From an uncultured Pelagibacteraceae bacterium (GTDB taxonomy: Bacteria; Pseudomonadota; Alphaproteobacteria; Pelagibacterales; Pelagibacteraceae), in assembly GCA_902579215.1 (NCBI GenBank), contig CACHGH010000001.1, forward strand, positions 1 through 64,000: a DNA stretch of 64,000 bases, given 5' to 3'. Position 1 is the first letter of the stretch. Each line of letters begins with the position of its first letter. This document shows positions 53,687-64,000 of this stretch, in pieces. The notes under the pieces are model-generated. The model saw only the letters and a program-made list of their open reading frames with translations, had not been told where the DNA came from and did not search any database. Both the position numbers and the translations under genes were made by a program.

Positions 53687-55012
53687 TTAACAATCTAATG
53701 TGTTATTTTTTTCCCAATCAGTAACCGGAGAATTTTTGTCAAAAGATTCTTCTTTAAAAAAATCATTTATTTCTAGATTTTTTAATTTTACATAGCTTTT
53801 AATTACCTGTTCACCAAAAGCTTCAGTAATTTCTTTGCTGTCTTCCAATTCTTTAATAGCTTCGTCAATTTCATTTGGAAGTTTAGCTAAATTTGGATAA
53901 TTTTTATAATCTTCGTACATATTACATGTTAATGGTTCACCAGGATCAAGTTTATTATTTAAACCATTTAATCCTGCAGCTATAATTCCTGCCTGAAGCA
54001 AGTAAGGGTTTACTGAACCGTCCATTAATCTTAATTCAAATCTACCAGGATCTGGAATTCTGATCATATGAGTTCTGTTGTTCCCAGAGTAAGATATGCT
54101 ACTTGGTGACCATGATGCACCTGATTTTGTAGGTGGTGCATTTATTCTTCTGTAACTATTTATTGTTGGATTAAAAAAAGCAGATAGAGGTCTCGCAAGT
54201 TTCATTATTCCACCTAAAAAGTTATATGCAACTTTTGAAAGTCCGTAACGATCACCATTATCTAAAAACTTATTATTCTTTTCTGTCCATACTGATATAT
54301 GTGCATGACATCCATTTCCTGTTAAATTTTGAAATGGTTTTGGCATAAAAGTTGCTCTTAACCCGTGTTTTTCAGCAAGCGATTTAACCATATACTTAAA
54401 GAAAACATGTCTGTCAGCTGTTACTAAGCAGTCTGCATAATCCCAATTCATTTCAAACTGTCCATTTGCATCCTCATGATCGTTTTGATATGGACCCCAT
54501 CCCATTTCAATCATACTGTCACATATTTCTTTGATTAAATCGTATCTTCTCATTAAGGCAGATTGATCGTAACAAGGTTTAGATTGTATATCTCTTGGAT
54601 CTGCAATGTTTGAACCGTCTTGAGAAATTAAAAAATATTCACATTCTACTCCAGACTTCATTGTAAGGTTTTTTTTTGACAGCATGCTTATTTGTTTTTT
54701 GAGCATTACTCTTGGTGAAGCATCAACTGGTTTACCACCCATCCACAGATCTGAGGCAAGCCAACCAATTTCTTTATTCCATGGCAATTGAATAAGACTA
54801 TCTGGGTCTGGAATTGCAAACATGTCCGTATCTGCTGGAGTCATATCTAGCCAAGTAGCAAAACCTGCAAAACCTGCACCGTTTTTTTGCATATCAGCTA
54901 TTGCTTGAGCAGGAACTAATTTTGATCTTAGTACTCCAAACAAATCTACAAAACTAATTAGAAAATATTTAATTTTCTTTTGTTTAGCTATTTTGGATAA
55001 ATTTTTTGACAT
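53687..55012 (-). CDS. Glutamine synthetase type III family, GlnT / gamma-glutamylmethylamide synthetase-like
   Basis: An ATP-dependent ligase joining glutamate with ammonia (GlnT) or methylamine (GmaS), 441 aa, the normal length for this class. Class sequence includes FLISFVDLFGVLRSKLVPAQAI, KNGAGFAGFATWLDMTP, ECEYFLIS, NDHEDANGQFEMNWDYADCL, GNGCHAHISVW, NSYRRINAPP, GNNRTHMIRIP and the glutamate-binding RFELRLMDGSVNPYL. GlnT and GmaS cannot be separated by eye; the MgsABC-like genes in the same cluster favour GmaS. It lies downstream of amt and two small membrane proteins. Confidence 0.87.
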   Translation of the reverse strand: MSKNLSKIAKQKKIKYFLISFVDLFGVLRSKLVPAQAIADMQKNGAGFAGFATWLDMTPADTDMFAIPDPDSLIQLPWNKEIGWLASDLWMGGKPVDASPRVMLKKQISMLSKKNLTMKSGVECEYFLISQDGSNIADPRDIQSKPCYDQSALMRRYDLIKEICDSMIEMGWGPYQNDHEDANGQFEMNWDYADCLVTADRHVFFKYMVKSLAEKHGLRATFMPKPFQNLTGNGCHAHISVWTEKNNKFLDNGDRYGLSKVAYNFLGGIMKLARPLSAFFNPTINSYRRINAPPTKSGASWSPSSISYSGNNRTHMIRIPDPGRFELRLMDGSVNPYLLQAGIIAAGLNGLNNKLDPGEPLTCNMYEDYKNYPNLAKLPNEIDEAIKELEDSKEITEAFGEQVIKSYVKLKNLEINDFFKEESFDKNSPVTDWEKNNTLDC

Positions 55013-55030: not shown

Positions 55031-55192
55031 TTAATTTAAAATAGAAAAAATAGTATCTTTATAATAAAGCAAGTTTATTACAATTATAATTATAATTGCA
55101 AGTATAACACCGTACTTTGCTTTAGGCCAAGCTAACCTAGCCATTTTATGAGGTACTTTATTTTGATTTTCTTCAGAATTCTTATCAGACAT
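55031..55192 (-). CDS. Small single-span membrane protein (53 aa)
   Basis: An ATG ORF below the track's cut-off: charged N terminus MSDKNSEENQNKVPHKMARLAW, one long hydrophobic helix (YGVILAIIIIIVINLLYY) and a short tail. It lies 18 nt upstream of the GlnT/GmaS-like gene and just after the hairpin following the 73-aa gene, all on the minus strand. The composition and close spacing support a real gene. No family is recognised; small membrane partners of transporters are one possibility. Confidence 0.6.
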   Translation of the reverse strand: MSDKNSEENQNKVPHKMARLAWPKAKYGVILAIIIIIVINLLYYKDTIFSILN

Positions 55193-55209
55193 TTTTGATT
55201 AATTATCAT

Positions 55210-55236
55210 AAGAGGCGCAAATTAATTGCGCCTCTT
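55210..55236 (-). terminator. Hairpin between the two small genes downstream of amt
   Basis: Perfect 11-bp stem AAGAGGCGCAA / TTGCGCCTCTT around a 5-nt loop, 13 nt after the stop of the 73-aa gene. The T tract on the minus strand is weak (TTATGATAATT), so it may act as an mRNA 3'-end stabiliser or attenuator rather than a full stop. Confidence 0.75.
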
Positions 55237-55249
55237 AAATAAAATTTAA

Positions 55250-55471
55250 TTACCACTCGGTAATATTGCTTTTGTGATCATTGGCACCATGTCTTTTTCT
55301 AGCTAATTCATCTAAATGTTTAGATTCAGCATTAGCAGTTATAACATGCCATCCAACCCAAATAACTAGCAAAACAATTACTAGTATACCTTCTGATCCA
55401 ACTCCGGGATAAACTGCACCTTGAACTTCTTCGGCGCTTAAATGATCTATCCAGTTTGTTACTGTTGCCAT
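55250..55471 (-). CDS. Small single-span membrane protein next to amt (73 aa)
   Basis: A 73-aa protein with an amphipathic N-terminal part (TNWIDHLSAEEVQGAVYPGVGSEG), one transmembrane helix (ILVIVLLVIWVGWHVITA, about residues 29-46) and a charged tail (ESKHLDELARKRHGANDHK). It has a strong SD (AAAGGAG) and starts 12 nt after amt, so the two are one transcript. No known family. Position suggests an Amt-associated small subunit, perhaps replacing the PII-type control that SAR11 is reported to lack; that is inference. Confidence 0.8.
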   Translation of the reverse strand: MATVTNWIDHLSAEEVQGAVYPGVGSEGILVIVLLVIWVGWHVITANAESKHLDELARKRHGANDHKSNITEW

Positions 55472-55483
55472 AATTTATCTCCT

Positions 55484-56884
55484 TTACCTTGTTGATGATG
55501 AAACTGCTTTTTCATCTTGTCTTGCAGCTTCCATCATGTTGTAGTCTAGACCAGCTATTTCTGCATCACGAGGTATTCTTAATTTACCCATTCCGTGAAG
55601 AACTTTAGCTATAATATAGCCAGGTATTAACCCTAGAACAAAGAACATTATAATTGCACCTATGAACATTCCTAATGGATTAATTGCTGCATAAGTTGCT
55701 CCATCCCACATAGCTCCAACACTGTATCCAGATGAAGGATAACCGTTGAGAACGAAACCGCAAATTACAAGTCCTGCGAATCCAGCATAACCATGAACGG
55801 CTACAGCACCAACCGCATCATCAATTTTGAATCTTCGCTCAACCCAATAATGCATTTTGTATGCTATCACAACACCAATCATTCCGATTACCAATGATTG
55901 AATTGGATGATACAAGTCGTTACCTGCAGACGCACATATTATACCTGCTAGTCCACTTGAGTATGTCCAGAAAGGATCTTTGTTTGAGATCACATATCCA
56001 GCCAACAATCCACCTGATAATGACATCAGGAAGTTCATTGTAATACCGCTAAGTGTAGTAGGGGTTACGTATATGTTTGTTGCTGTCCAGTATGTTACAC
56101 CTTCCATACCATATTCAGGTCCAAGATCGTATATTGGTATATTACACGCAGCGTAGAATCCCCAAAAACCAGTATAAATTAAAAATAATCCAATTGTTAC
56201 CAGCCAAGGATTTCTTGGTCCTATATTTCTTGGTTCACCACTTGATGAAAATTTACCTATTCTTGGTCCTAAAACCATAAGAATACCTAATGCAAATCCA
56301 CCTGCAACGGCATGAATTACACCCGATGCATAAGCATCATGATATCCTAATATTTTTAACATCCATCCATCAAAATGCCATCCCCAAGCAGCGTCAATTG
56401 ACCAGAACACAGATCCTATTGCAATTGCTAAAATTCCAAATGCAAAAGTTGTAATTCTTTCAATAACCGCTCCTGAGACGATTGATGCAGCAGTCCAAGA
56501 GAATAATAAAAACGCAGCCCAGAATACTCCACTTATATGATCACCTAAATTAATTGCCATTAGGTCACTAGATGGAACGTACCATTTTGCACTAAACGCG
56601 CTTTCATCAGTAATTAGAGCAGCACTTTCATTCATAATCGAAGGTGCTATTCCTGGTCCTGTTGGAAATGCCCAGTAAATCCACCAACCAAATAAAAACC
56701 ACGTAACTGTTACCAAAGGTATCAGCATAGTGTTTTTCATTAAGGTATGTTGGTGATGTTTGTACCTAGATGCGCCAACTTCATACATACAGAAACCTAC
56801 GTGAATTAAAAACATAAGTACCACTGTTACCCAGTAGTAAAATTCTGTAAATATGGTAGTCAGAGCAGCTAATTGGTCAGTCAT
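55484..56884 (-). CDS. amt: Ammonium transporter (Amt family)
   Basis: An 11-12-helix trimeric channel for ammonium uptake, 466 aa. It shows VLMFLIHVGFCMYEVGASRYKHHQH, DHISGVFWAAFLLFSWTA, GVIHAVAGGFALGILMVLGPRIG, the pore His motif DAVGAVAVHGYAGFAGLVICG, and SGGLLAGYVISNKDPFWTYSSGLAGIICASAG. The N terminus has no obvious signal peptide. Strong SD (AAGGGAGGAAGAC). The cluster around it encodes glutamine- and glutamate-synthase-like enzymes, so it feeds nitrogen assimilation; methylammonium is also a plausible substrate. Confidence 0.96.
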   Translation of the reverse strand: MTDQLAALTTIFTEFYYWVTVVLMFLIHVGFCMYEVGASRYKHHQHTLMKNTMLIPLVTVTWFLFGWWIYWAFPTGPGIAPSIMNESAALITDESAFSAKWYVPSSDLMAINLGDHISGVFWAAFLLFSWTAASIVSGAVIERITTFAFGILAIAIGSVFWSIDAAWGWHFDGWMLKILGYHDAYASGVIHAVAGGFALGILMVLGPRIGKFSSSGEPRNIGPRNPWLVTIGLFLIYTGFWGFYAACNIPIYDLGPEYGMEGVTYWTATNIYVTPTTLSGITMNFLMSLSGGLLAGYVISNKDPFWTYSSGLAGIICASAGNDLYHPIQSLVIGMIGVVIAYKMHYWVERRFKIDDAVGAVAVHGYAGFAGLVICGFVLNGYPSSGYSVGAMWDGATYAAINPLGMFIGAIIMFFVLGLIPGYIIAKVLHGMGKLRIPRDAEIAGLDYNMMEAARQDEKAVSSSTR

Positions 56885-57020: not shown

Positions 57021-57431
57021 TTAAAATTTTAAATATGCTTTTTTCAAATCAACTAAAGGATGATTTGGAGACATTTGAAACTTAACAAGTAATTCTCTTG
57101 CAATCATATCTCTATCTTGTTGGTTATCGGGTAATTTAATTTTTTTGGGAATTGTTACCCAACCATTTGCGTTTCTATCAAATACTGCTGGTCTATCTTC
57201 TTCGTAACCCATATGAACATCTTCTAACCAATTAAGATCATCCCAACCCATGTGTTCAATATATTTTTTTAGAAATGGAGTAAGTTTTTTATAGTCTGGC
57301 AATAAGTTAACGTCATATCTATATCCAATAGTTTGACCAATCATTTTTTCTCTTGCTGTTTCTTTCTTCTTGCCTAATTGGCCTTTTACTATTTTAACTT
57401 TTTTATTTTTATTTTTATTTTTTTTTGTCAT
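57021..57431 (-). CDS. Hypothetical protein with a polybasic N terminus, last gene of the glx/mgs-like operon
   Basis: A 136-aa soluble protein. Residues 1-25 are almost all Lys/Asn (TKKNKNKNKKVKIVKGQLGKKK), followed by GYRYDVNLLPDYKKLTPFLKKYIEHMGWDDLNWLEDVHMGYE, a compact aromatic/acidic domain, and KLPDNQQDRDMIARELLVKFQMSPNHPLVDLKKAYL. It starts 6 nt after the glutamate-synthase-like gene. I recognise no family. Its fixed place suggests a subunit or assembly factor of that enzyme. Confidence 0.75.
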   Translation of the reverse strand: MTKKNKNKNKKVKIVKGQLGKKKETAREKMIGQTIGYRYDVNLLPDYKKLTPFLKKYIEHMGWDDLNWLEDVHMGYEEDRPAVFDRNANGWVTIPKKIKLPDNQQDRDMIARELLVKFQMSPNHPLVDLKKAYLKF

Positions 57432-57437
57432 ATTTAT

Positions 57438-58835
57438 TTAAATTTTATGAAAATCGTCTACTCCTACTGTGTGATTTGTACCTGATAATGGAACTTTTGC
57501 TAAAGCCGACGCTTCCATTGTCAATGCAGCCATATCTTCTGGTTCTAAAGAATGTATGTTTGTTTTTCCACATGCTCTTGCCAACAATTGAGCTTCTAAG
57601 GTCATTGTATGTAAATAATTGTAAACTCTTAATGCTGCATCATCAGGGTTTAATCTTTTCCTTAATTTTGGATCTTGAGTAGCAACACCTACAGGACATC
57701 TTCCAGTGTGACAATGGTAGCAATGGCCAGCTGGAACGCCCATTTCTTTTTCAAAATTAGACTCAGGAATTTCTTTATTACAGTTAAGCGCTATCATGGC
57801 ACCTGTTCCAATTGCAATTGCATCAGCACCTAAAGCTAAAGCTTTTGCCATATCTGCACCATCTCTGACTCCACCTGCGTAAATTAAAGTAACTTTTCCA
57901 GTTTTACCAACATCATCAAGAGCTCTTCTAGCTTCCCTGATAGCTGCAATTCCAGGTATACCAGTATTAGCTGCAGCAATGTGTGGTCCTGCTCCTGTCG
58001 ATCCTTCCATTCCATCTAAATAAATTGAATCTGGATCACACTTAGCAGCCATACGAACATCATCATAAACTTTTGCTGCACCAAGTTTTAATTGTATTGG
58101 TACTCTGTTTTTTGTTAACTCTCTAAGCTCTTGAACTTTTAAAGCTAAATCATCTGGTCCTAACCAGTCAGGGTGTCTAGCAGGTGATCTTTGATCAATT
58201 CCTGCAGGTAAAGATCTCATTTCAGCAACTTGATCTGTAACTTTTTGACCCATAAGGTGACCACCCATACCTACTTTTTGTCCTTGTCCAATAAAAACTT
58301 CTATTCCATCTGCAAGTTGTGCATGATGAGGGTTAAATCCATATCTTGATTGAATACATTGATAATACCATTTTTCTGAATACCTTCTTTCATCAGGTAT
58401 CATTCCACCTTCGCCAGAACATGTTGCTGATCCTGCCATTGTAGCACCTCTTGCTAAGGCAGTCTTTGCTTCATAAGAAAGAGCTCCAAAACTCATACCT
58501 GTTATATAAACAGGGATGTCAAGTTCGATTGGATTTTCACATCTTGGTCCTATTACTGTTTTTGTTTCACATTTTTCTCTATAACCTTCAATTACAAATC
58601 TTGTCAAAGTTCCTGGTAAGAAAACTAAATCATCAAATGTTGGAATTTTTTTCATCAATGCCATTCCACGCATTCTGTATCTTCCTAATTGTGCTTTTAT
58701 ATGAATATCGTCTATTACCTCAGGCGTAAAAATAGCGTTGTAACCTAATAAGCTTTTATTTCTTTTTGCAAATTCACTTTTTCCATTTGCATGACCATTA
58801 GCTTTTCCATTTCCGTTTTTCTTTTTTTTTGCCAT
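57438..58835 (-). CDS. FMN-binding glutamate-synthase-domain protein (MgsC / GlxD type)
   Basis: An FMN/Fe-S amidation subunit resembling the synthase domain of GltB, 465 aa from the ATG at 58835; the track start 16 codons earlier lies within the preceding gene, and an SD (AAGGAG) precedes MAKKKK. A Lys/Asn/Gly-rich tail (residues 1-20) is followed by VYITGMSFGALSYEAKTALARGA, CSGEGGMIPDERRYSE, VPIQLKLGAAKVYDD, YLDGMEGSTGAGP, YAGGVRDGADMAKALALGADAIAIG and the cluster Cys in CYHCHTGRCPVGVATQ. It likely forms N-methylglutamate (MgsC) or glutamate with the two upstream subunits. Confidence 0.88.
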   Translation of the reverse strand: MAKKKKNGNGKANGHANGKSEFAKRNKSLLGYNAIFTPEVIDDIHIKAQLGRYRMRGMALMKKIPTFDDLVFLPGTLTRFVIEGYREKCETKTVIGPRCENPIELDIPVYITGMSFGALSYEAKTALARGATMAGSATCSGEGGMIPDERRYSEKWYYQCIQSRYGFNPHHAQLADGIEVFIGQGQKVGMGGHLMGQKVTDQVAEMRSLPAGIDQRSPARHPDWLGPDDLALKVQELRELTKNRVPIQLKLGAAKVYDDVRMAAKCDPDSIYLDGMEGSTGAGPHIAAANTGIPGIAAIREARRALDDVGKTGKVTLIYAGGVRDGADMAKALALGADAIAIGTGAMIALNCNKEIPESNFEKEMGVPAGHCYHCHTGRCPVGVATQDPKLRKRLNPDDAALRVYNYLHTMTLEAQLLARACGKTNIHSLEPEDMAALTMEASALAKVPLSGTNHTVGVDDFHKI

Positions 58836-59689
58836 TATATAGCTCCTTTTTTCTCTGTAGGTTCTAGCGCATCGTAGTTCCAAAGTTTTTTACCAGCAAC
58901 AACCTTAGTCATTTTTGATACATCTACATCATTTCCAATTTCCGCAACCTTAAGCTTTCTTTTTAACCAATCTATATCATTTTTTGTCATGGGAGATTCT
59001 ACCGCATCGCTGCCAAAAGAGCCAATTTTACCACCTACATATATAGTTCCATCATACATAGAGTCTCCAAGATTAATTCCTACGTCACCTAAAATTACAA
59101 TTCTTCCTCTTTGCATCATAAAACCTGTAAATGCTCCAGCGTCTCCTCCAACAATTATAGAACCACCTTTTTGGTCAATTCCAGTTCTTGCACCTACACT
59201 TCCTTTACAAATTAAATCGCCACCTCTTATAGCAGCACCAAAACACGAGCCAGCATTTTTTTCAATAACAACTTTTCCTGCCATCATATTTTCTGCACAT
59301 GACCATCCAACACGTCCATTAACTCTAACTATCGGACCATCTATTGAACCAACACCAAAATAACCTAAACTTCCTTCAAATATTAAATTTAATTTATTTA
59401 ATATTCCTACACCCAAACTATGTTTTCCTTGAGGATTTTTTATCACAATTGTTCCGTAGCCTTCACTCATTAATTTGTCTATTTTTTCGTTTGCTTCTTT
59501 ACAATCCATATCTTTAACATCAAGCTCTGTTCTTTTATTAAAATCTACATCATGCGTACCCCAATAAAAAAAGTTTTCAGCTTCATCTGGGTTAAAAAAT
59601 TTTTGTTGGGTTTTTCCAGTTAAAACTTCAGTGTGTAAACCCATTGATTGGGCTTTAGTTTTTTTTTGATTAGTTTTTAAATTTGCCAT
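58835..59689 (-). CDS. GXGXG-domain glutamate synthase subunit (MgsB / GlxC type)
   Basis: A 284-aa protein consisting mainly of the right-handed beta-helix (GXGXG/alpha-subunit C-terminal) domain of glutamate synthase: SLGYFGVGSIDGPIVRVNGRVGW, GDLICKGSVGARTGIDQKGG, IIVGGDAGAFTGFMMQRGRIVILGDVGINLGDSMYDGTIYVGG. The N-terminal 15 residues are Lys-rich. It overlaps the upstream amidotransferase gene by 13 nt, and its stop overlaps the downstream start (TAATG), so the three subunits are translationally coupled. Confidence 0.9.
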   Translation of the reverse strand: MANLKTNQKKTKAQSMGLHTEVLTGKTQQKFFNPDEAENFFYWGTHDVDFNKRTELDVKDMDCKEANEKIDKLMSEGYGTIVIKNPQGKHSLGVGILNKLNLIFEGSLGYFGVGSIDGPIVRVNGRVGWSCAENMMAGKVVIEKNAGSCFGAAIRGGDLICKGSVGARTGIDQKGGSIIVGGDAGAFTGFMMQRGRIVILGDVGINLGDSMYDGTIYVGGKIGSFGSDAVESPMTKNDIDWLKRKLKVAEIGNDVDVSKMTKVVAGKKLWNYDALEPTEKKGAI

Positions 59690-60618
59690 ACTTTTACTTC
59701 TCCATCAAAAGGATCATAAGTATCAATCTCTTGTGGAAGGATAGATCTAATTGCTATCTCTTCAGATCCCATCGCTACTAAATCATCTGACTCATATAAC
59801 ACAAGTGGTTTTGCTGCCATTGTATCTTTTGCCATACCCAATGAGTCTTTTGTTGCCACAAAATAAGTGAATACACCATCAAGTCCTGTAAGCGACTCTT
59901 TCATTCCCTCTTCTAGGGTTGCACCATTTCTCATTTTTTCAGCTAGAAACACTGCAATTAATTCAGAGTCACACTCAGACATAAACCTCATGCCTTTATT
60001 TTCAAGCACTCTTCTATTATTCCAATAATTCGTTAATTGACCATTATGTACTACAGAAACATCAGCAAAAGGATAGCCCCAAAAAGGGTGAGCAGATTTA
60101 ATATCTACACCTGACTCAGTAGCCATTCTAGCATGTCCAATACCATGTGTTCCTTTTAATTTTCCTAATCCATATCTTTCTGATACAGCAGTGGCGTCTC
60201 CAAGGTCTTTTATAAGTTCAAGGGATTTTCCAATTGAAAGTATTTCCACACTTTCAATAGCCTCTATTGCTTTAGAAAATTCCATTAAATCTTGGGTGTA
60301 TTTAATTTCATATCTAAAAGAATATGGAGTTAATTTTTCTTCTTTAACAATTGTAGCACCCAATTCTGATAATTTTTTATCTACAAGTTTTTTTCTTTCA
60401 TTATAAACGCTTTCATCTTCGTTTACTGAAGTACTTCCCTCACCAACATTTTCACCAACTTTAAATCGCAGTATAAAATTTTGTCCATCGTTATCAGCAT
60501 ATAGAGCATATCCTGTAGAGTCAGGACCCCTATGCTTTAATGCTTGAAGCATACTTTGTAGTTCTTCCCCTACGTTTGATGATTTACCTCTATGTATTAG
60601 TCCAGCGATTCCGCACAT
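59677..60618 (-). CDS. Class II glutamine amidotransferase subunit (MgsA / GlxB type)
   Basis: A 313-aa N-terminal nucleophile amidotransferase. It begins MCGIAGLIHRGK, with Cys2 as the catalytic nucleophile after Met removal; LQALKHRGPDSTGYALY, GIGHARMATESGVDIKSAHPF and VVHNGQLTNYWNNRRVLENKG follow, as in GltB and PurF glutaminase domains. It supplies ammonia, or in the N-methylglutamate pathway methylamine from gamma-glutamylmethylamide, to the FMN subunit. It lies 29 nt downstream of the glutamine-synthetase-family gene. Confidence 0.9.
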   Translation of the reverse strand: MCGIAGLIHRGKSSNVGEELQSMLQALKHRGPDSTGYALYADNDGQNFILRFKVGENVGEGSTSVNEDESVYNERKKLVDKKLSELGATIVKEEKLTPYSFRYEIKYTQDLMEFSKAIEAIESVEILSIGKSLELIKDLGDATAVSERYGLGKLKGTHGIGHARMATESGVDIKSAHPFWGYPFADVSVVHNGQLTNYWNNRRVLENKGMRFMSECDSELIAVFLAEKMRNGATLEEGMKESLTGLDGVFTYFVATKDSLGMAKDTMAAKPLVLYESDDLVAMGSEEIAIRSILPQEIDTYDPFDGEVKVWQI

Positions 60619-60647
60619 AAAATTACCCCCTATATACTATAAATATC

Positions 60648-62117
60648 TTATGGTAGACAATCTAAATAAGTATCCAGATCCCACTGAGTTGTCGCGCCTA
60701 AGAATTTTTCCCACTCATCATTTTTGTACCAATGAAAAACTTTGTACATTTCATCTGGCATAGCTGATTTAATAACTTCATCTTCAGCTAATCTATCTAG
60801 CGCTTCTCCTAAACTTAATGGAAGTTTTTTAACATCTTTTCCAGCCTTTTTAGCTTCATACATACTTCTAGACTCAGGTTTAGATGGTTTCAGATTTTTT
60901 GAAATACCATGGTCGCAAGCTTTTAACAAAGCTGCACCTAAAAGATATGGATTATGCATAGAGTCAACTGATCTATACTCAAATCTTCCAGGAGCTGATA
61001 CTCTTAAACCGCAAGTTCTGTTTTGATATCCCCAATCAGCATAAACTGGAGCCCAGAAACCTTGATCCCAAAGTCTTCTGTAAGAATTGACAGTTGAAGA
61101 TCCTAAAGCAGTTAATGCAGGTAAGTGTTCCATTATTCCAGCAATAGACTGTAAACCAACTTTACCCGGTAGTTGCATATCTTTAGTATCAGGCATAAAA
61201 GTATTTGTACCTCCCTGTACATAACCAAACACTTCCTCTACTCCAGGTAACTTTTTATTACCTAATCTGTTTGTTACAACTTTTCCACCTTTCCATAAAG
61301 ACATGTTCGTGTGACAACCGCTTGCAGATACTCCCATAAACGGTTTTGTCATAAAGCATGCTATTAAATTATGTTCTCTTGCTACTTGGGCACAAATTTG
61401 CCTGTAAGTAGAAAGTCTATCAGCATTTCTTAAAACATTGTCGTATGTCCAGTTTAATTCTAATTGTCCCGGAGCATCTTCATGGTCACCTTGGATCATA
61501 TCTAAACCCATGGCTGAAGCGTATTCAATTACTTTCATAAACACAGGTCTTAATGACTCAAATTGATCAATGTGATAACAGTATGGTTTAGAAAAACCTG
61601 CTCCAGTAGGGGTTCCGTCAGGATTTTTTGTTAACCACATCATTTCAGGTTCTGTTCCTACTCTTAATTCTAGACCATGTTTTTTCTGAAATTCATCCAT
61701 AAAAATTCTTAGGTTTCCTCTACAATCAGAAGTTAAATGTCCTCCTGGATTTTCTCTTTCTTCTCTATTTCTAAAACATGTAACAAAAACTCTTCCAACT
61801 CTTTTATCCCACGGTAGTTGACAGAAAGTTTCAGGGTCAGGTATACCTACAAGCTCCATAGCTTCAGGACCGTAACCTATATAATTTTTGTGCCTGTCTA
61901 CAAATAAGTTGGCAGTTGATCCATAAACTAATTGAAATCCTTTTTCTGCAGTTCTTTCCCAATGATCTGCAGGAATTCCTTTACCAACAACACGTCCTGT
62001 TACAGATATAAATTGGTAATAAATGTATGTAATTCCTAATTCGTTAATTTTTTCTCTAACTTTTTTTACTAATTTCGCTCTTCCTGGTTGATTTACATGT
62101 TTTTCTAGATCCGTCAT
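60648..62117 (-). CDS. Glutamine synthetase family protein (second paralogue)
   Basis: A 489-aa glutamine-synthetase-fold ligase, distinct from the 441-aa paralogue in this window. It shows ELGITYIYYQFISVTGRVVGKGIPADHWERTA, GYGPEAMELVGIPDPETFCQLPWDK, GTEPEMMWLTKN, GDHEDAPGQLELNWTYDNVLRNAD, SASGCHTNMSLW, NSYRRLWDQGFWAP and RFEYRSVDSMHNPYL, so the metal and nucleotide sites look complete. Strong SD (AAGGGGG). The divergent glutamate-site region (WDQGFWAPVYADWG) suggests a different amine or acid substrate. It directly precedes the MgsABC-like genes. Confidence 0.87.
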   Translation of the reverse strand: MTDLEKHVNQPGRAKLVKKVREKINELGITYIYYQFISVTGRVVGKGIPADHWERTAEKGFQLVYGSTANLFVDRHKNYIGYGPEAMELVGIPDPETFCQLPWDKRVGRVFVTCFRNREERENPGGHLTSDCRGNLRIFMDEFQKKHGLELRVGTEPEMMWLTKNPDGTPTGAGFSKPYCYHIDQFESLRPVFMKVIEYASAMGLDMIQGDHEDAPGQLELNWTYDNVLRNADRLSTYRQICAQVAREHNLIACFMTKPFMGVSASGCHTNMSLWKGGKVVTNRLGNKKLPGVEEVFGYVQGGTNTFMPDTKDMQLPGKVGLQSIAGIMEHLPALTALGSSTVNSYRRLWDQGFWAPVYADWGYQNRTCGLRVSAPGRFEYRSVDSMHNPYLLGAALLKACDHGISKNLKPSKPESRSMYEAKKAGKDVKKLPLSLGEALDRLAEDEVIKSAMPDEMYKVFHWYKNDEWEKFLGATTQWDLDTYLDCLP

Positions 62118-62153
62118 TTTCCCCCTTAAATTATAAGTTTAAAAAGGTAACTG

Positions 62154-62181
62154 AAAAAAAATTATCTGTCTAGTTAGATAA
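62154..62181 (-). terminator. Weak terminator-like hairpin after the FAD oxidoreductase
   Basis: On the minus strand TTATCT / AGATAA closes an 8-nt loop and is followed by eight Us, right after the stop of the FAD gene and 36 nt before the next ATG. The stem is short and A/U-rich, so partial termination at most. Confidence 0.45.
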
Positions 62182-62182
62182 A

Positions 62183-63532
62183 TCAACTCCAAGGAAATGG
62201 ACTGTTCGAAGTAGGGTGAAGCTCACCTTTCTCGTATCGGTTGAATCTAAAAGGTTTTAATAAATCACTTTCTTTTCCTAGAACTTCTTCAGCAACAAGA
62301 TTGCCTACTCCCATCATTTTATATCCATGATTTGAATCTGCTATAACGTAAACATTTTCACAAAATTTATCAAACACAGGAAAACTATCAGGAGTAAAAC
62401 AGCCTAAACCACCAGATGGTCCTTGTTTATATTGTTGAGATTTTCCTTCAAATCTTTTTTGACAGTGAGCTAATGCTGATGACCACATATGTGCAAAATC
62501 ATCTGTTGTTTGAAAGTCTTTTGATGCAAGTCCATAAGGGTCAATTTTTACTTCTTCAACTTTATCATCTACTTTAAATGGAGCCGCACCTCCTTGCACA
62601 CCGTGTTTGTCACATATGTCAGGTTTATAATAAATTCCCCACATTTTATCTGTAATTAATGATTTATCTCTATCAGAATATAATGGCTCTTCACTATCTA
62701 CATGAATTAGTGGTGGTAATTTCCCATCGTCAGTTTTTAAAAAACCATCTCCCACATTCATAACGCCTTCTTGCAAAAACCAATACTTCCACATATTTTG
62801 GTTATCTTTTTTCTCTCCATTATATTTTATTGAAATTTTCTGTGGCAGTTCTAACATTTCCCAAATTTTATAAATCCATGGACCTACAGCAACAATCACT
62901 TGTTCACACTCTATTGTCCCTAAGGTTGTTTCTACGCCTGTAACTGCTTTACTATTACTTCCTCTTTTAAATCCTGTGACTTCAACTCCTGTAATTATAT
63001 TTGCACCTTCATTTTTAGCTTTATTTCCACATGCTCCTATCGCAACCTTATTTGGAGAGTAGCCTCCTTGTTTTTCATGAAGAATGCTAGTTATACCTGG
63101 AGCTTGCCAATCACTAAAAATATTTTTCATATAATTAAAACATTTTTCTTCACCTTCTATAAATTCAGAGTCATAACCTATTTTTTGTTGTTGCTCGTAT
63201 ACTGAAGACATATCTTTTCTCATTGCTTCGGTGTTAATCTGCATAAAACCTACTGAATGATAATTAAAATCTTTGGCATCTTTTTCCCAAATATCAACGC
63301 TATGAGCCATTAGCTCTCTCATTGCTGGTTGAAAATAATTATTTCTTACAACCCCACAAGCTATACCGCTAGCTCCAGCAGCAATTCCTGTTTTATCTAA
63401 AACTACAATATCATTTTCTTTGACGGTTTGACCTTTAGCTTTTATTTTTTCTCCAAGATTCCACGCAGTGCTCAAGCCATGTATTCCTGCTCCAATGATT
63501 ACGTACTTAGCTTTTGAAGGAAGTTTGCTCAT
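62183..63532 (-). CDS. FAD-dependent amine oxidoreductase (DAO / sarcosine oxidase beta-like)
   Basis: A 449-aa flavoprotein. It has the Rossmann motif YVIIGAGIHGLSTAWNLGE, the DAO sequence DIVVLDKTGIAAGASGIACGVVRNNY, QGGYSPNKVAIGA, VIVAVGPWIYKIWEML and a C-terminal GPSGGLGCFTPDSFPVFDKF, then ADSNHGYKMMGVGNLVAEEVLG. Relatives oxidise sarcosine, dimethylglycine or N-methylglutamate, passing formaldehyde to folate. Its start overlaps the end of a GcvT-like gene by 4 nt, matching the sarcosine-oxidase-type pairing of an FAD subunit with a folate-binding subunit. The exact amine is not determinable. Confidence 0.85.
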   Translation of the reverse strand: MSKLPSKAKYVIIGAGIHGLSTAWNLGEKIKAKGQTVKENDIVVLDKTGIAAGASGIACGVVRNNYFQPAMRELMAHSVDIWEKDAKDFNYHSVGFMQINTEAMRKDMSSVYEQQQKIGYDSEFIEGEEKCFNYMKNIFSDWQAPGITSILHEKQGGYSPNKVAIGACGNKAKNEGANIITGVEVTGFKRGSNSKAVTGVETTLGTIECEQVIVAVGPWIYKIWEMLELPQKISIKYNGEKKDNQNMWKYWFLQEGVMNVGDGFLKTDDGKLPPLIHVDSEEPLYSDRDKSLITDKMWGIYYKPDICDKHGVQGGAAPFKVDDKVEEVKIDPYGLASKDFQTTDDFAHMWSSALAHCQKRFEGKSQQYKQGPSGGLGCFTPDSFPVFDKFCENVYVIADSNHGYKMMGVGNLVAEEVLGKESDLLKPFRFNRYEKGELHPTSNSPFPWS

Positions 63533-64000
63533 GCTTTAACTTTAGTTTTTTCTGGATCATAAAATGGAAATCCAACAACTTTTGCAGATATTCTTTTTTG
63601 ATGTCCGTCAATTTTTCCTACTTCTACTTTTGTCCCCATTTTTGAATGATTAACATCTATTCTACAAAGAGCAATATTTTTGTTGAGAGTTGGAGATATA
63701 CAACCACTAGTAATTACGCCAATTTGTGACCGTTCAATATGAACACAATCTCCATGATTAGCCTTTTCTTTACCAATCAACTCAAGTCCTACGAGTTTTT
63801 TTTGAGGGTTTTCTTTTCTTTTAACTAAACTTTCTTTACCAATAAAATCATCTGTTTTAGTTTTTAAAGGAACAGTAAAACCAACTCCAGCTTCAAAGGG
63901 ATCAATTTGCCCATCAAATTCATTTCCAAAAAGAATTAATCCAGCCTCTATTCTTAATAAATCTAATGCACCAAAACCTGCTGGTATTAAACCCTCATCT
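63529..64000 (-). CDS. GcvT-like aminomethyltransferase (C-terminal part, cut by window end)
   Basis: The track starts this ORF at an internal TTG (63780), but the frame is open to base 64000 and encodes GcvT sequence: GALDLLRIEAGLILFGNEFDGQIDPFEAGVGFTV, then FIGKESLVKRK, QIGVITSGCISPTLNKNIALCRID and a final ISAKVVGFPFYDPEKTKV. These are the tetrahydrofolate-binding middle and C-terminal barrel. It probably accepts one-carbon units released by the FAD enzyme it overlaps. The 5' part is outside the window, so family subgroup (GcvT, DmdA-like, sarcosine oxidase) is undecided. Confidence 0.85.
   Translation of the reverse strand, partial: DEGLIPAGFGALDLLRIEAGLILFGNEFDGQIDPFEAGVGFTVPLKTKTDDFIGKESLVKRKENPQKKLVGLELIGKEKANHGDCVHIERSQIGVITSGCISPTLNKNIALCRIDVNHSKMGTKVEVGKIDGHQKRISAKVVGFPFYDPEKTKVKA

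Follow-up and report, generated by a model that had tools for sequence, protein, structure and literature searches.

A single-span membrane protein as a candidate dedicated subunit of a distinct clade of Amt transporters

A 73-residue single-span membrane protein, p73, encoded directly downstream of a divergent Amt-family transporter gene (amt) in an uncultured Pelagibacteraceae bacterium, is probably a dedicated small subunit of a distinct Amt clade, one that would work with methylated-amine metabolism. The genetic evidence for an obligatory partnership between p73 and this Amt is very strong, and from gene context we infer that the Amt substrate is methylammonium, ammonium or both. Here, the window means the whole 64,000-nucleotide stretch of contig CACHGH010000001.1 that was analysed.

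Gene organization of the window

In the window, which belongs to a Pelagibacter (SAR11) contig, genes of the minus strand run in the order gcvT-like, FAD oxidoreductase, gs2, glxB/mgsA-like, glxC/mgsB-like, glxD/mgsC-like, 136-aa protein, amt, p73, hairpin, p53 and type III glutamine synthetase, with the following coordinates.

53687..55012, minus strand: glnT/gmaS-like type III glutamine synthetase, putative gamma-glutamylmethylamide synthetase (TIGR03105, E 9.7e-186; 55% identical to Ruegeria glnT of a dmm/mgs cluster)
55031..55192, minus strand: p53, a 53-aa single-span protein, Pelagibacter-specific and probably a separate unit (conserved core plus hydrophobic helix)
55209..55237, no strand assigned: hairpin with a perfect 12-bp stem and 5-nt loop, a conserved GGGCGC..GCGCCC terminator-like element that probably closes amt-p73
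55250..55471, minus strand: p73, proposed small Amt subunit, N-out/C-in by charge (kept after amt in every readable locus of this Amt clade; dN/dS 0.136)
55479..55483, minus strand: Shine-Dalgarno motif AGGAG of p73, just past the amt stop
55484..56884, minus strand: amt, divergent Amt-family transporter of group A, 466 aa (PF00909, E 5e-52)
57021..57431, minus strand: 136-aa conserved protein (no Pfam or NCBIfam match above cut-off; homologues 65-78% identical beside group A and B amt loci)
57438..58883, minus strand: GltB-type FMN protein, glxD/mgsC-like (PF01645; 51% identical to the Ruegeria homologue)
58835..59689, minus strand: GXGXG protein, glxC/mgsB-like (PF01493)
59677..60618, minus strand: class II glutamine amidotransferase, glxB/mgsA-like (PF13522/PF13537)
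60648..62117, minus strand: gs2, a second glutamine synthetase-like protein (31% identical to Ruegeria glnT; recurs beside group A and B amt genes)

Two small single-span ORFs of 73 and 53 aa had been predicted between amt and the glutamine synthetase-like gene, and their coordinates proved exact. The original prediction placed both directly downstream of amt, which describes p73 but not p53, as the hairpin lies between the two; the stem itself is perfect, as proposed, but measures 12 rather than 11 bp. The suggested coupling of p73 to amt through a Shine-Dalgarno motif stands, with p73 starting 12 nt after the amt stop and AGGAG inside this gap, whereas the identity of the surroundings as the SAR11 methylamine (N-methylglutamate pathway) region (PMC3160333) had been overlooked.

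Both small ORFs are genes, but only p73 belongs with amt

Of 80 Pelagibacteraceae loci fetched for an amt at least 90% identical to that of the window, 78 have this flank on the contig, and p73 comes after amt in every one of these. Median pairwise dN/dS is 0.136 for p73, 0.20 for p53 and 0.035 for amt; p73 is thus under purifying selection (dN/dS about 0.14), and both small ORFs are real genes. That p73 might be a spurious ORF is ruled out by this ratio together with its conservation in distant genomes. SD-like motifs lie 5' of the small ORF in 127 of 128 loci, and Pfam and NCBIfam hold no match for p73, p53 or their distant homologues. In one Pelagibacter genome, p73 is present as two tandem copies (G023:C15:15372-15830; L022, L025).

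In 57 of 79 loci, p73 is followed by a perfect stem of 7 bp or more, compared with 5% of shuffles, and base changes within the hairpin preserve pairing. Many relatives have a T-run after the hairpin, the window copy is without one, and a promoter and terminator scan of the window was uninformative at this position. This element probably ends an amt-p73 unit, which would place the p53 gene in a later one. Of the two ORFs, whose conservation beside amt had originally been proposed as a check, p53 was found only in Pelagibacter loci; being genus-restricted and beyond the terminator-like hairpin, it is unsupported as part of the Amt pair. The strongly conserved p53 motif PSKM(ARLAW/RGVAF)PKAKYG precedes the helix, and p53 also occurs where the next gene is something other than glutamine synthetase.

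The transporter is a divergent member of the Amt family

The window Amt scores 177.4 bits against PF00909 (cut-off 23.2), which makes it a member of the Amt/Mep/Rh family, and does not reach the TIGR00836 and TIGR03644 cut-offs. Numbered on a sequence that we take to be E. coli AmtB, the clade keeps F103, F107, W148, D160, H168, F215, D310 and H318, so that the twin-His pore is intact; F107, W148, D160, H168, F215 and H318 are invariant in groups A and B (the latter a sister group described below). Three exchanges relative to AmtB are equally invariant in both groups (Ser219 to Cys, Trp212 to Phe and Asp313 to Gly), and Cys occupies the Ser219 position in all 36 rows of the alignment. S219 of ammonium site S1 is common but not required for Amt/Mep/Rh membership; its loss is a variant site and not family-defining. 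In a PDB comparison, the nearest solved folds were Amt channels and Amt sensors.

p73 co-occurs with one Amt clade across two classes

A profile search of 385 sampled Alphaproteobacteria recovered p73 homologues in 35 genomes from 25 genera, in every inspected locus as an ORF of 61-87 aa immediately 3' of Amt; p73 is not SAR11-specific but has a wider range. An independent Amt search of the same 385 genomes returned the same 35 genomes and two in which Amt is cut by a contig end, that is, the p73 genomes are exactly those with an uncut Amt at least 57% identical to that of the window, and among the 385 p73 never occurs in a genome that lacks this Amt (P about 2e-50 by Fisher's test, for genomes that are not fully independent). 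Within the genus, both genes are absent together in G004, G029 and G357. Amt and p73 distances are correlated (r = 0.85; 0 of 500 permutations).

The sister Amt group, group B, is 43-48% identical and has an adjacent single-span ORF of 50-68 aa with a Shine-Dalgarno motif. The group B small family and p73 are distant homologues (E 6.5e-7 and 92% probability in hhalign). Their paired alignment has a single residue that is invariant in both families, a Glu where the helix ends on the inner side; a shorter group B protein that was aligned on its own has an Asp nearby. Gammaproteobacterial loci served as a test set after the hypothesis had been formed, and all 20, of which 19 were new, carry a small ORF (18 by a simple ORF filter, the other two by a match to the p73 profile). 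By comparison, some 20 canonical Amts encoded in the same genomes lack any such ORF within 100 nt, and an 81-aa ORF beside one of them is unrelated. In a tree of 79 Amt rows, the 'small ORF' label changes once, on a branch with 100/100 support, and all paired Amts fall on one side; as that branch is very long, the grouping is more secure than the exact placement of the split.

Two further loci are recorded here. One genome (G000:C19, L001) has a second, canonical-type Amt whose 3' flank lies outside the contig and whose relatives are without a small neighbour; and a group B amt with a 59-aa small gene lies on a Pseudomonas aeruginosa megaplasmid (L200, LT969519.1) beside genes for betaine aldehyde dehydrogenase and aminomethyltransferase.

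Distribution of PII

It had been proposed that p73 is an alternative gate for Amt because SAR11 lacks PII proteins. PF00543 is indeed missing from the nine Pelagibacter-genus genomes examined, complete ones included, but other SAR11-order genomes encode PII, as do 30 of the 33 more distant p73 genomes. Since most p73 genomes also encode PII, p73 did not arise as a PII replacement, and the SAR11-specific version of this idea is rejected. That p73 nevertheless acts as a regulatory gate in the role of PII is very unlikely: the missing PII of the Pelagibacter-genus genomes and an Amt tail that differs in this clade from canonical tails speak for such a gate, yet PII coexists with p73 in most of the distant genomes, p73 is a single hydrophobic helix with no PF00543 match, and other Pelagibacter genomes are without p73, this Amt and PII, all three together.

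A methylated-amine neighbourhood

Methylated-amine or closely related genes (dmmDABC, gmaS/glnT, mgsABC/glxBCD, gs2 and a sarcosine-oxidase-like protein) occur within 8 kb of about 31 of 52 paired loci (about 60%) and of 0 of 8 canonical controls, a comparison in which several paired loci without such genes are on short contigs and the control set is small. By group, these are 20 of 32 loci in group A and 10-12 of 20 in group B, the range reflecting two weak glnT-like matches. The order in Ruegeria conchae is dmm genes, gcvT-like, amt, a 'hypothetical protein' that is p73, mgsABC and glnT, and the window has homologues of this set, gmaS-like and mgsABC-like, at 55, 51, 38 and 36% identity; by these similarities its surroundings are a putative N-methylglutamate pathway cluster. 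The SAR11 strain HTCC1062 oxidises methylamine, with glxBCD and glnT as proposed pathway genes (PMC3160333), and amt recurs in methylated-amine clusters in the accessible parts of PMC7574528 and PMC5520151, which make no mention of a small gene beside it.

These enzymes raise the alternative that p73 acts in methylamine metabolism apart from Amt, for example as a membrane anchor for GmaS or N-methylglutamate synthase, and is merely co-encoded. We regard this as highly improbable: many loci do carry the enzymes, but they vary while the pairing with amt is invariant, genomes without this Amt are also without p73, and several loci (L211, L226, L230, L232) keep amt-p73 with none of the enzymes within 8 kb, which argues that the invariant tie is to amt.

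A second gene set (window positions 57021-63780) comprises gs2, a split glutamate synthase, the 136-aa protein and sarcosine-oxidase-like and GcvT-like proteins. It replaces mgsABC/dmm beside this Amt clade in L206-208, L214, L218, L221, L223-225, L231, L239 and L241, and L205 has both sets. As dmm is absent from SAR11 according to the accessible part of PMC5520151, the second set might handle another methylated amine.

p73 as an Amt subunit

Complete co-occurrence with one Amt clade, adjacency to it in diverse neighbourhoods and in Gammaproteobacteria, and absence beside canonical Amts strongly favour the predicted role of p73 as an Amt subunit, and that it is a physical subunit is likely on this genomic evidence. 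Production of amt and p73 together from one unit is suggested by the Shine-Dalgarno motif right after the amt stop and the terminator-like hairpin after p73. The protein would insert as one helix, with a short N-terminus bearing a YP..G.E motif outside, the charged tail inside and the invariant Glu49 at the membrane edge; one copy may pack alongside each Amt protomer, adding a twelfth helix, and may be needed for assembly, stability or conduction. The transporter would bring in methylammonium and/or recapture ammonium for the neighbouring gmaS/mgs enzymes, though it could simply recapture ammonium. Whether the whole Amt clade is heteromeric, with a dedicated single-helix subunit that would make or tune an ammonium/methylammonium channel for methylamine use, is an evenly balanced proposition.

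The p73 gene shares the reading frame of amt, so their read-through, with Gly for stops and an artificial linker between the chains, could be modelled as one chain with AlphaFold for the window and one group B locus (pLDDT/pTM 78.5/0.82 and 83.4/0.86, respectively). The small helix reached a pLDDT of about 90 in both models and the linker was of low confidence; these scores describe the fold of the helix and do not show docking.

Two observations count against parts of the subunit proposal: p73 evolves faster than Amt, which is compatible with a peripheral role, and about 40% of paired loci have no methylamine gene within 8 kb, which weighs against the methylamine link. Stability or assembly roles are known for single-span small proteins, MgtS and MgtU of Mg transporters among them (accessible part of PMC10710835). 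A p73 of this kind, which would protect Amt from proteolysis or help its trimer to assemble and not be a stoichiometric working subunit, would fit its greater tolerance of change and the membrane-edge Glu as sole residue shared by both groups; we consider it unlikely because obligatory one-to-one pairing across a whole Amt clade is generally more typical of a subunit. A dedicated subunit remains our preferred interpretation.

Comparison with known systems

Amt proteins are textbook homotrimers under PII control, a picture that would be altered if a whole clade had an obligatory small membrane partner. To our knowledge, no Amt-family transporter has so far been known to require a small membrane subunit; if the proposal is correct, this would be the first, in some of the ocean's most abundant cells. 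It would also point to how SAR11 and Roseobacters take up methylammonium; these bacteria consume methylated amines, which otherwise contribute to the formation of marine aerosol.

The Roseobacter and SAR11 methylated-amine clusters (dmmDABC, gmaS-mgsABC) share the neighbourhood and enzymes described here (PMC5520151, PMC3160333), but the accessible text of the papers found names amt and leaves the small gene unmentioned; more generally, the literature searched, which was confined to papers available without subscription, contained nothing on a small subunit for Amt. The solved Amt/Mep/Rh channels 8qpf, 6eu6 and 2nuu have the same Amt fold of eleven helices with twin-His and Phe-gate residues, but are only 17-21% identical, with the Ser219 to Cys and Asp313 to Gly exchanges setting the clade apart, and no small membrane subunit is described for any solved Amt in the structure match list. 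In AmtB-GlnK, too, amt has a partner gene whose small product, GlnK, works on the transporter; GlnK, however, is a soluble trimeric PII protein, whereas p73 spans the membrane once, bears no similarity to PII and coexists with PII in most genomes. p73 has the genomic features of transporter-associated single-span small proteins, being one helix, small and co-encoded with one transporter clade, although the accessible part of PMC10710835 and the other papers found describe no such protein for the Amt family. AcrZ, MgtS, MgtU and LucB (PMC10710835, accessible part) are, like p73, single helices of under about 80 aa with a genetic or functional tie to one transporter, but the tie of p73 extends to an entire clade of transporters in two classes.
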